The notes under the pieces: generated by a model | Database searches by the model: none | What the model was told of the DNA's origin: nothing | The model's input: the letters and a program-made list of their open reading frames with translations, nothing else | Shown: positions 11,525 through 52,447 of the stretch, piece by piece | Layout: each line of letters starts with the position of its first letter | Numbering within the stretch: the stretch's first letter is position 1 | Assembly (NCBI RefSeq): GCF_013839425.1 | Contig: NZ_JACDNP010000003.1 | Span: 62,001 to 126,000, forward strand | DNA from: Halorhabdus salina | GTDB lineage: Archaea; Halobacteriota; Halobacteria; Halobacteriales; Haloarculaceae | Direction of reading: 5' to 3' | Length of the DNA stretch: 64,000 nt | Program-made: the position numbers and the translations under genes

Positions 11525-11893
11525 CGCTATTGCATTCGCGTTGCGTGATTCAAATCCCGCTTTGCGTTTCGACGCTCACGAAGACGAGCACACGCTACGC
11601 GGTGCTCGTCGGAAATTGTTCGCAGTAGAAGACGCCCGAAGCGAGACTGAGCGAATCCGTCGGATTCGCGAAGGTCGGAAGACGATCGCGTCTTCCGGGA
11701 CTGAGCAAACGCGAGCGTTTTCGAAGGTCGAGAGACGCCGTGGCGTCTCTCAGGATTGTGAACCGGAGGAAGACGGTCGCTCACTCCGTTCGCGCTGCGT
11801 CTTCTAGAGTTCAAATCCCTCGCGGGGTATTTGCCGAACTCGAGTCGCTCGGCGACGAGACGCCTCGCTTGTGGGTTGAGTTCGGCAAAAGTA
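11525..11893. repeat. Palindrome array 3' of tRNA-Asp
   Basis: No gene is supported here; the stretch is built from palindromes. Stems: 11583-11591/11602-11610, 11651-11658/11662-11669, 11677-11684/11689-11696, 11707-11712/11715-11720, 11730-11739/11742-11751 (10 bp, 2-nt loop), 11769-11775/11798-11804 and 11831-11841/11878-11888 (11 bp). T-arm-like texts TTCAAATCC occur at about 11550 and 11810. The 36-nt segment 11769-11804 is found again, inverted and with one mismatch, at 43624-43659 beside tRNA-Ser. Read on the minus strand the array lies directly downstream of tRNA-Asp. Confidence 0.75.
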
Positions 11894-11966
11894 CGCCCGG
11901 AGCGGGATTTGAACCCGCGTCACGACCGTGACAGGGTCGTATGATGGGCCACTACACCATCCGGGC
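11894..11966 (-). tRNA. tRNA-Asp (anticodon GTC)
   Basis: The minus strand gives a 73-nt cloverleaf. The acceptor is GCCCGGA/TCCGGGC with discriminator G, the anticodon stem ACGAC/GTCGT encloses loop CCTGTCACG (anticodon GTC), and the T-arm is GCGGG-TTCAAAT-CCCGC. CCA is not encoded. An AT-rich box, CTTAATATTAG on the minus strand (about 11993-12003), lies about 27-37 bp upstream and probably is the TATA element. Confidence 0.95.
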
Positions 11967-26301: not shown

Positions 26302-26417
26302 GCTTTCACCGCGGGCGTTGGATGGTTCAGCCGGGTGTCCGGCCACATTCCGACCTGTCGAACAGGTGCCCGCTGGCTGCCCGCAGACCAGCGAGTTACC
26401 TATTGTACCCTTGTTGG

Positions 26418-34801: not shown

Positions 34802-34875
34802 CCGCCCTTAGCTCAGACTGGTAGAGCAGTCGACTGTAGATCGACTTGCCCCCCGTTCAAATCGGGGAGGGCGGA
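34802..34875 (+). tRNA. tRNA-Tyr (anticodon GTA)
   Basis: A 74-nt cloverleaf. The acceptor is CCGCCCT/AGGGCGG with discriminator A, the D-arm has AGCTCAGACTGGTAGAGCA, the anticodon stem TCGA/TCGA encloses CTGTAGA (anticodon GTA), and the T-arm is CCCCGTTCAAATCGGGG. CCA is not encoded. Its last 21 nt plus the first 6 flanking bases recur exactly 141 bp downstream. Confidence 0.95.
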
Positions 34876-35158
34876 CTCGTTCTGACGCCGACTGCGACCG
34901 AAGGGAGCCAGCGGCGTCTGTCGTGTAACCCACGACCCGATTTCGTGCTCGGAAGTCGCAGCCGACGAACGTAGTGAGTCGGACCGTCTTCCGGTGTTCA
35001 AATCGGGGAGGGCGGACTCGTTTTGTCGACGTAACACGTCGACTGTCGAGTATATCACTCCCCGATTTGAGCCTGGAAGTCGCAGCGGCCGAGCGTAGCG
35101 AGGCCGACCGTCTTCATCTGTTCAAATCGGGGAAAGAAAACGACGCAAGTAACGAGAG
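34876..35158. repeat. Palindrome array with a duplicated tRNA-Tyr 3' end
   Basis: The 27-nt text covering the tRNA-Tyr T-loop to 3' flank (34855-34881) is repeated exactly at 34996-35022, and a partial copy (GTTCAAATCGGGG) lies at 35120-35132. Between them are stems 34884-34890/34912-34918, 34920-34925/34931-34936 and 35025-35032/35036-35043. Two large nested hairpins span 34936-35008 and 35060-35132. Both carry the text GGAAGTCGCAGC...GACCGTCTTC, and the second has an 11-bp outer stem CCCCGATTTGA/TCAAATCGGGG. No gene is supported. Confidence 0.8.
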
Positions 35159-43356: not shown

Positions 43357-43381
43357 CGGCAACGGTGTACCCGGAATCGTT

Positions 43382-43466
43382 GCCGAGGTAGCCTAGCCTG
43401 GCCAAGGCGCCTGCCTCGAGAGCAGGTGTCCTCACGGACTCGAGAGTTCAAATCTCTCCCTCGGCG
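43382..43466 (+). tRNA. tRNA-Ser (anticodon CGA)
   Basis: An 85-nt class II tRNA. The acceptor is GCCGAGG/CCTCGGC with discriminator G, the anticodon arm CCTGC-CTCGAGA-GCAGG gives anticodon CGA, the long variable arm is TGTCCTCACGGACT, and the T-arm is GAGAGTTCAAATCTCTC. CCA is not encoded. Two further copies of its T-loop to 3' end lie downstream at 43548 and 43665. Confidence 0.95.
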
Positions 43467-43966
43467 TTTCTAACTCCGAGCAAACGCGAGGAGTCTGTAC
43501 GCTAAAGAGATTTGAATCAGGGAGTGGAGCGAAGCGGAACGACCGTGGTTCAAATCGCTCCCTCGGCGCTTCTCCTTCCGAACGGACGTGAGGAAGGTGT
43601 GCAACGCGAGAGTTTGAACCCTGGAAGACGCAGCGCGAACGTAGTGAGCGACCGTCTTCGTCCGGTTCAAATCACTCCCTCGGCGCTTCTCAATGGTACG
43701 TCAAGCTTCGAGCCGTACGTGCATCCGTTATTGATGGAACGATAGCACTGACTCCTGACAACAAAGGGTGTGCACGATATAGAGGTTCCATGTAGCACGG
43801 CAGCTTCATTTTTATACCAGAGACAGTGGACCAGCCACTCAGTAAGCCTGCAACGTAAATTGCCCCTCGATGAGTGTGCTGATATGATATGTTCGCCGGG
43901 CGTAGATTATGCTGACCGACGATTTCGGACTCTCCTGTCACGCTCCGGTAGTGCCGCTCAGTCTGC
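43467..43966. repeat. Palindrome array with repeated tRNA-Ser 3' ends, then plain intergenic DNA
   Basis: GTTCAAATC-N-CTCCCTCGGCG occurs at 43446 (in the tRNA), 43548 and 43665. Each extra copy closes a hairpin whose outer arms are GATTTGAA/TTCAAATC (43509-43516/43549-43556) or TTTGAACC/GGTTCAAA (43613-43620/43664-43671). The second hairpin contains stem GAAGACG/CGTCTTC (43624-43630/43653-43659) and the 36-nt core shared with the tRNA-Asp locus. From 43691 to 43966 I see no gene, RNA or repeat. Confidence 0.78.
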
Positions 43967-50794: not shown

Positions 50795-52447
50795 ATGTCG
50801 AGCACATTTCGTCAGGTACAATGTCGGAATACCCGACGACCGAGGATAGAGGAAGTCGCCCCACGGCGGCTGGGCGCGAAATTCTCCCCCAGTAGTGAGG
50901 ACCGAATTTTGCCAGGATTGTTCGGCGAGCACCCCGCGACCGAGTCACTCGACTCGCTCTCTTCCGTGGGGCTGCTCGATACGACGCTCCGTGACGGTGA
51001 ACAGGCTCCAGGGGTATCGCTGTCTCCTGATGAAAAAGCACGCATCGCCCGCCAACTCGACGCCGCCGGGATCGACGTAATCGAGGCCGGCAGCGCCGTG
51101 ACAGGACCCGGCGAACGCGAGACGATCCGCCGCGTAACGTCGATGGATCTGGAAGCGACGATCACCAGCTTCGCCCGGAACGTCCGCGGGGACATCGATC
51201 TGGCCTTAGACACCGATGTCGACGGCGTCCATCTCGTCGTCCCGGCCAGCGACCGCCACATCGAGGGCAAACTCTCGACCTCTCGCGAGGACGTGATCGC
51301 CGACACCGCCGAGTTGGTCGAGTACGCTGTCGATCACGACCTCTGGGTCGAAGTGATCGGCGAGGACGGCTCCCGTGCCGACCTTGACTTCCTCGAGGAA
51401 CTCATGGCTGCAGCCCTCGACGCTGGTGCTGATCGCGTTTGCTACGCCGACACCGTCGGCCACGCGACTCCCGACCGCACGCTGGACGCCGTCTCCCGGC
51501 TCGCCGATCTTGGGCCGACGAGCACACACACCCACGATGACCTCGGGCTGGCGGTCACCAACGCCCTGGTCTCGCTGGCCGCGGGTGCCGACCTCGTCCA
51601 CGGGACGATCAACGGAATCGGCGAACGGGCCGGCAACGTCGCCTTAGAGGAGGTCGCCATCGCCTTGGATCATGGCTACGGCGTCGAGACGATGGACCTC
51701 ACGCGCGTGTACGATCTCGCCCAACTCATCGCCAACAAGACGGGGATTCCACTGGCCCCCAACAAGGCCGTCGTCGGCGAGAACGCCTTCACCCACGAGT
51801 CGGGCATCCATACCGACGGCACGCTCAAGGACGAGTCGATGTACGAGCCCTACCCGCCCGAGAAAGTGGGGCGGGAGCGACGCCTTGCGCTGGGCAAACA
51901 CGCCGGCCGGGCCGGTGTCGAGGCCGCACTCGCTGAGCACGGCATCGAAGTCGTCGATGCGGAACTCGATGCCGTCTTCGAGCGCGTCAAGGAACTCGGC
52001 GAGCGTGACAAACGCGTCACCGACGCCGACCTGCTCGCCATCGCCGAGGACGTCCAAGATCGCGACCGCGAGCGCCGTGTCAGGGTCGAGGATCTGACGA
52101 CTGTCGCCGGGAGCGGGACGCCGACCGCAAGCGTCAAGGTCGTTATCGACGGCGTCGAGCGTACTGAGGCCGCGGTCGGTGACGGCCCCGTCGACGCGGC
52201 GATGAACGCCGTCGAGGACGCTCTCGGCCGTACCGTCGACTGGAACCTCGATTCCTACCATGTCGATGCCATCACTGGCCGGACGGACGCTCTCGTCACT
52301 GTCGAGGTCGAGATGTCACGGGGCGATCGCTCCGTGACGGTCGCCCGAAGTGACGCCGACATCACTCGAGCCTCCGTCGAGGCCATGGTCGACGCCATCG
52401 ACCGGCTGGTCGAGACGGAGACCGAACCCCTCGTGGCTGACGACTAA
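50795..52447 (+). CDS. (R)-citramalate synthase / 2-isopropylmalate synthase family protein
   Basis: The enzyme condenses acetyl-CoA with pyruvate or 2-ketoisovalerate for isoleucine or leucine synthesis. The TIM barrel starts LLDTTLRDGEQAPGVSLSPDEK, with TSTHTHDDLGLAVTNAL and HGTINGIGERAGN (metal His pair). A regulatory LeuA dimer domain fills the last 120 residues. The first 38 residues from the ATG at 50795 are Arg-rich and unlike haloarchaeal protein, so the true start may be TTG 50909 or GTG 50966. Which substrate it uses cannot be told here. A T5 terminator follows. Confidence 0.82.
   Translation: MSSTFRQVQCRNTRRPRIEEVAPRRLGAKFSPSSEDRILPGLFGEHPATESLDSLSSVGLLDTTLRDGEQAPGVSLSPDEKARIARQLDAAGIDVIEAGSAVTGPGERETIRRVTSMDLEATITSFARNVRGDIDLALDTDVDGVHLVVPASDRHIEGKLSTSREDVIADTAELVEYAVDHDLWVEVIGEDGSRADLDFLEELMAAALDAGADRVCYADTVGHATPDRTLDAVSRLADLGPTSTHTHDDLGLAVTNALVSLAAGADLVHGTINGIGERAGNVALEEVAIALDHGYGVETMDLTRVYDLAQLIANKTGIPLAPNKAVVGENAFTHESGIHTDGTLKDESMYEPYPPEKVGRERRLALGKHAGRAGVEAALAEHGIEVVDAELDAVFERVKELGERDKRVTDADLLAIAEDVQDRDRERRVRVEDLTTVAGSGTPTASVKVVIDGVERTEAAVGDGPVDAAMNAVEDALGRTVDWNLDSYHVDAITGRTDALVTVEVEMSRGDRSVTVARSDADITRASVEAMVDAIDRLVETETEPLVADD

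Follow-up and report, generated by a model that had tools for sequence, protein, structure and literature searches.

The rtT repeats of the E. coli tyrT operon (RF00391) are non-coding tandem repeats of ~178 bp that lie behind tRNA-Tyr at one locus, each containing the tRNA 3′ end. In integrons, the attC sites carry an R′ box with the consensus GTTRRRY. When folded, these sites show an outer duplex ending AAC/GTT and a spacer that stays unpaired, together with an inner stem that contains a mismatch and a tip that varies (PMC2727003). Archaeal tyrosine integrases use att sites in tRNA genes (PMC8371274). Short dispersed palindromes without genes of their own are known as REP/BIME elements (RAYT), and an archaeal genome, that of Haloquadratum, carries comparable PATEs, which are IS605-derived elements (PMC3119063). 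Here we describe repeats behind tRNA genes in a 64,000-nucleotide stretch of Halorhabdus salina (hereafter the window), follow them across haloarchaea and compare them with each of these systems.

The repeats are clearest at tRNA-Tyr(gta), which lies on the plus strand, as do all the features of this locus (34802-34875/6; G53 at 34855, T54 at 34856 and the discriminator A73 at 34875). The initial annotation had reported copies of the tRNA 3′ end behind this gene, and it is confirmed in every detail that it described. A 27-nt text, GTTCAAATCGGGGAGGGCGGACTCGTT (34855-34881, from G53 to 6 bases past the mature end), is repeated exactly at 34996-35022, a shorter 13-nt piece, GTTCAAATCGGGG, is repeated at 35120-35132, and the copies are spaced by 141 and 124 bp. 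Unit 1 (34856..34996, 141 bp) runs from T54 of the tRNA to the base preceding T54 of the next copy, and unit 2 covers 34997..35120 (124 bp). In unit 1, a hairpin termed H1 (34884..34918, GACGCCG...CGGCGTC) is followed by a small hairpin (34920-34936, GTCGTG-TAACC-CACGAC), and in unit 2 H1 is GTCGACGTAACACGTCGAC (35025..35043); these three were read from the sequence, and H1 as a class is covered by the folding comparison below. Both tRNA copies close a second, larger hairpin (H2) with common strings. In unit 1, H2 (34935..35008) has the inverted T-arm CCCGATTT as its left arm, a core formed by AGTCGCAGC (34954-34962) and GACCGTCT (34982-34989), and closes on the copy of tRNA positions 54-73 (34997..35016, plus 6 trailer bases to 35022). 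In unit 2, H2 (35060..35132) has the same core strings at 35078-35086 and 35106-35113 and a truncated tRNA copy (35121-35132) as its right arm. Both H2 hairpins match the covariance model of the family, R1 (71.6 bits, E 8.7e-17 and 87.0 bits, E 5.8e-21, respectively), with E-values that are rough and with both hairpins among the 25 source sequences that built the model and hence match it by construction. The 339-nt repeat stretch as a whole folds with z = -6.3, and 0 of 100 shuffles folded equally well.

The general order of a unit, read in the sense of the tRNA, is positions 54-73, trailer, H1, inverted T-arm, core with a variable tip, a G, and positions 54-73 again. That is, the H2 core (AGTCGCAGC-tip-GACCGTCT) is framed by direct and inverted copies of the 3′ part of the resident tRNA. 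A structure alignment of 25 hairpins (paralogues and relatives) has 94.6% standard pairs, with 75 cells changed on both sides against 25 in shuffles. The covariation score of these hairpins is 0.35 against 0.14, with 0 of 500 shuffles reaching the observed score, and the signal is lost when partner columns are slid by 1-3.

The arms are tailored to the tRNA behind which they stand. Among 96 distinct hairpins, the right copy is 83-100% identical to its own tRNA at positions 53-73, drops to ~50% from position 74 and is at background upstream of 52; the drop at 74 indicates that the right copy stops at the mature tRNA 3′ end. Even acceptor positions 65-73, which lie outside the hairpin, are 83-93% identical to the own tRNA versus 39-55% to others. 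The left arm matches its own tRNA at 55-62 and weakens beyond. Comparing left arms with all T-arms was undiscriminating because most T-loops read TTCAAAT, so left arms were instead shuffled among hairpins (one per anticodon, 28 anticodons): outer-arm pairing is 94% as found versus 83% when shuffled, with 0 of 2000 shuffles as high. The arms also track unusual T-loops, such as TTCAATT and TTCAACT in Gly, TTCGAGT in Asn and TTCGATT in His. Five letter-identical cores of 38-42 nt each occur behind different tRNAs with differing arms. Identical cores with tRNA-matched arms imply that the core is held in common and the arms are proper to the resident tRNA. A separate observation in this genome concerns a tRNA-Leu-like pseudo-copy at a contig end (G000 C22:189-258), in which an H2 hairpin separates the 5′ part from the T-arm.

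The hairpins are a family of short (~110-190 bp), non-coding chromosomal units that stand in tandem 3′ of tRNA genes in one haloarchaeal order. The initial annotation had described them as a feature of tRNA-Tyr; they are not peculiar to it and stand behind ~20 tRNAs per genome. In the window, the covariance model places hairpin units behind all three tRNAs: besides tRNA-Tyr, these are tRNA-Asp(gtc) (11894-11966, minus strand), with an H2 whose arms are tRNA-Asp text (11750..11821, minus), and tRNA-Ser(cga) (43381-43467, plus), with a weak H2 in unit 1 (43505..43560, plus; 22.4 bits) and a stronger one in unit 2 (43606..43677, plus; 60.8 bits). Genome-wide, the same model finds 34 hairpins behind ~20 tRNA kinds, 1-3 per tRNA and nearly all on the strand of the tRNA, the first most often beginning 38-60 nt past the tRNA end. 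A DNA search of 59 genomes also returned core matches beyond the Tyr locus, and the 20 such sites inspected were nearly all directly behind other tRNAs (Ser, Ala, Cys, Arg, Asp, Gly, Leu, Thr and Val). The core pattern without tRNA arms has 18 matches in the genome, and its reversed form, used as a control, has 12; of the 18, the matches whose tips resemble those of hairpins coincide with model hits and the remainder resemble coding sequence.

Across taxa, 65 of 79 genomes (30 of 37 genera) in a sample of the order have a match, with up to 32 copies; G089, G072 and G043 are among the members that lack units. In a phylum-wide sample, matches were confined to the same order, with 22 of 24 order members among the matches listed and none of ~126 other genomes. 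An exact-pattern scan of named genomes found the family in Halorubrum, Haloarcula, Natrinema, Natronomonas, Haloferax larsenii (one member) and other haloarchaea, as well as matches in a few bacterial contigs that may be due to chance. The hairpins reached no Rfam 15 family at gathering or relaxed thresholds, and haloarchaeal repeats were absent among the open-access papers listed as matches to the core and tip motifs.

Several features lie beside the family. The tip motif GARCGNAGYGAG occurs 90 times in this genome against 36 in the reversed control, and many of these sites are remote from tRNA hairpins, which suggests that this hairpin type is used more widely. A second palindromic repeat family, with the form GACCTTCG...hairpin...GCTCAGTCCC and GGAAGAC..GTCTTCC, is present at ~11560-11750 of the window (minus strand) and at the loci L059, L057 and L053, where it interrupts 3′-end copies of tRNA-Asp and tRNA-Ala. 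Two Rfam matches in the window are to the leuA-Halobacteria RNA (50835-50887, plus) and the eL15-Euryarchaeota leader (26319-26366, minus).

The initial annotation proposed that the array reflects stepwise growth by a small unit using the tRNA 3′ end, and named a constant number of units in all relatives as evidence to the contrary. Unit numbers are not constant: syntenic loci in seven congeners, located via their upstream sequence, differ. At tRNA-Ser(cga), the genome studied here (G000) has two units, G001 none, G002 one and a degenerate one, G003 one degenerate unit, G004 three, G005 none and G006 one; counts in degenerate arrays were read from the sequence by eye and, counted loosely, form the set 0, 0, 1, 1, 1, 2, 3. 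What sets the empty site of G005 apart from the occupied site of G006 is precisely one unit of 151 bp with tRNA 3′-end copies at its boundaries, and the downstream flanks align without a gap. A small unit with a differing copy number is therefore supported by the range of 0-3 and by this pair, but units are also lost or shuffled, so that growth may be just one direction of change.

Modules within units are exchanged as well. Behind tRNA-Asp, H1 families share 81-89% identity within and mostly 73% or less between families, and a single H2 type (95-97% identical) follows three different H1 families in G003, G005 and G006. The same H2 behind different H1 implies that the two modules reassort, with the inverted T-arm that joins them as the break point. 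At tRNA-Tyr, G000, G001 and G003 have a common phosphotriesterase-like neighbour with differing unit numbers and core types, and G001 carries a longer tRNA-Tyr pseudo-copy in which hairpins interrupt at the T-stem/T-loop border. As a separate case, two tRNA-Tyr-type hairpins lie 1.6 kb apart in G039 (C4:324800-327800) and enclose a gene (ORF 902-1951) resembling an F420-dependent (mer-like) reductase; this is possibly a unit with cargo or a simple rearrangement.

How do these units compare with the described systems? They share with rtT their non-coding, tandem position behind tRNA-Tyr and the tRNA 3′ end in each repeat, but differ in occupying ~20 tRNAs per genome and in having a structured core and an inverted, tailored arm; RF00391 gave no match to them at E <= 10. 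In outline, the hairpin partly resembles an attC site, with an H2 outer duplex ending AAC/GTT, an unpaired spacer, an inner-stem mismatch and a variable tip, and the addition of tandem units at a fixed site recalls the integron. The attC-like topology and AAC/GTT are found in most hairpins, with CRA as the bases after GTT; many tRNA-Tyr units have GAGC, not GAAC. The R′ sequence is GTTCRAA versus GTTRRRY, no genes were seen in typical units, every tRNA would be an ‘attI’, and the best match to the integron integrase (TIGR02249) in the genome scores 31.5 bits against a cut-off of 265. As in tRNA att sites, the target lies in the tRNA 3′ part, the gene is restored and the identity block extends to the mature 3′ end, whereas units of 110-190 bp without integrase or cargo, a core common to different tRNAs and an inverted arm set the family apart. 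REP/BIME elements and PATEs are likewise short palindromes without their own genes, but the haloarchaeal units are strictly tRNA-anchored with tailored arms, and Y1 (HUH) transposase is absent from G000 and G005 (34 and 30 hairpins). The best reading of these likenesses is that the units may work like integrase att sites or attC hairpins while belonging to neither class.

What the comparisons support directly is the anatomy of the units, their sharp copy boundaries, the tailoring of the arms, the exchange of units and modules between species and the taxonomic range. From these we tentatively favour, at somewhat below an even balance of belief, small integrative units that recombination at the T-loop of the tRNA would add, remove and exchange, with the sense strand perhaps folding as DNA and a site-specific enzyme perhaps taking part. 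A unit would enter or leave at the T-loop (G53/T54) and supply its own copy of positions 54-73, so that the gene would stay intact, while the displaced old 54-73 stretch would then form the right arm in the hairpin of that unit. The duplex of the hairpin, built from an inverted and a direct T-arm, would imitate the tRNA T-arm in folded form, and may be, or have been, the substrate of a recombinase or of a template-switching process acting on tRNA T-arms. Units could then be added or deleted, and H1 and H2 modules swapped, through recombination at T-arms of either orientation.

T-loop integration requires that a working tRNA 3′ end be brought in, which fits the sharp 54-73 block; it is also in keeping with the exact one-unit difference between G005 and G006 and with the swapping of modules. 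The acceptor copy kept outside the hairpin is best explained if units alternate as the real tRNA 3′ end, which argues for recombination at the T-loop. Plain integration leaves the match of the inverted arm to its tRNA unexplained. The core might be copied from one tRNA to another by a switch of strands within the conserved T-loop sequence (GGTTCRAAT), and both arms would then come from the target. Counting against T-loop recombination, direct repeats permit deletion by homologous recombination, the empty site may be either ancestral or derived, and searches for a dedicated enzyme found no integron integrase above the cut-off and no Y1 transposase in G000 or G005, with only two PF00589 genes in G005 despite its 30 hairpins. 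Tyrosine recombinases are present in all seven congeners (2 to 13 each) and could act on the units in trans. A wider form of the proposal, which we regard as unlikely, is an integron-like system without cargo that uses tRNA genes as platforms: T-arm-mimicking hairpins would pass units through the T-loop, tRNA 3′ ends would be renewed with every exchange and new tRNAs would be colonised by T-arm copying.

The strongest alternative, rather doubtful in our judgement, is a structured RNA. Here the tRNA transcript would continue into H1 and H2, with a role in 3′-end formation, termination or a stable trailer RNA, and the arms would match the tRNA in order to sequester the trailer copy of its 3′ half. 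The fixed sense orientation, the short distance from the tRNA, the strong covariation and the invariant internal loop all agree with it. So do precedents from Haloferax volcanii, where mapping found two 3′ ends downstream of tRNA-Pro and where 59% of transcripts were terminated by a hairpin at another site (PMC7237163). When RNA energies are used, the more stable fold belongs to the sense strand rather than to the complement in 53 of 65 H1, 87 of 121 H2 and 49 of 67 tRNAs; this bias, about as strong as in tRNAs and absent for H1 and H2 with DNA energies, favours an RNA role.

Other properties of the fold speak for DNA. The middle stem has 8 G.U against 11 A.C cells among 861, and the acceptor and T stems of tRNAs at the same loci have 28 G.U against 4 A.C, although these counts are small and the inner-stem A.C cells stem partly from one poorly aligned column. 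The tips are GNA triloops in 50 cases versus GNRA in one. Loops of the GNA type are unusually stable as DNA. Both the GNA tips and the lack of a G.U excess in the middle stem thus favour DNA. Against a structured RNA there are also the 0-3 units at one syntenic locus (0 in two species) and the preservation of the acceptor-strand copy beyond the hairpin, for which a hairpin in a trailer would have no use. A reading of the T-runs as terminators is weak, since TTTT is found in 21 of 75 tRNA trailers. On either view, single-stranded DNA or RNA, it is the sense strand that counts; as to which of the two molecules folds, the evidence is mixed.

Passive decay and amplification is an improbable source of the family. 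An old inverted duplication at tRNA 3′ ends would have been multiplied and deleted by homologous recombination and slippage, and gene conversion with the tRNA would have kept the copies alike. In its favour, there are direct repeats of 13-27 bp, G033 has an exact tandem duplication (two equal-scoring hairpins 221 bp apart), and the palindrome behind tRNA-Leu in G029 (L042) extends into the trailer. An order-wide core, the restriction to tRNAs, the tailoring of both arms and module exchange at ~12-nt sites exceed drift.

Larger islands occur at the same site. One of ~12.4 kb (G018 C1:1562800-1577000) and one of ~4.8 kb (G055 C1:2228800-2235600) separate tRNA-Tyr from its hairpin units, and both carry a tyrosine-recombinase-like gene next to the hairpin end; their position implies that island and unit insertions share a site yet are distinct. 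In G000, hairpins at C20:50884-51306 and a hairpin at C1:524766-524949, both without an intact tRNA nearby, adjoin integrase genes (C20:51489-52088 and C1:523508-524065, respectively) and look as if an island had split them from their tRNA. The initial annotation had judged the spacing far too short for an integrated island and had named an origin as att scars of known integrases as evidence against its proposal; no att carrier was found in phage records or viral contigs. That the units are scars (attL/attR) of ordinary tRNA-targeting viruses or plasmids is, despite these islands and integrase-adjoining hairpins, highly improbable, as the hairpin is absent from 50,697 phage records and the strict core pattern from 2.9 million viral contigs (matches listed by looser viral patterns were judged chance and left out of the evidence), the sole plasmid match is an 828-kb replicon where the hairpin lies next to the replicon's own tRNA-Gly, and an inverted tRNA-tailored arm and a common core are foreign to att scars.

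None of the repeat classes tested covers a family that builds its flanks, direct and inverted, out of the resident tRNA. The number of units per tRNA and strain is a defined, countable character, and cultivable hosts exist. If units do enter via the T-loop, tRNA 3′ ends would be regularly exchanged by recombination across an archaeal order, which would bear on tRNA genes as integration hot spots and on tRNA gene evolution. The tRNA genes of these haloarchaea seem to serve as docking points for a small, modular and previously undescribed repeat system.
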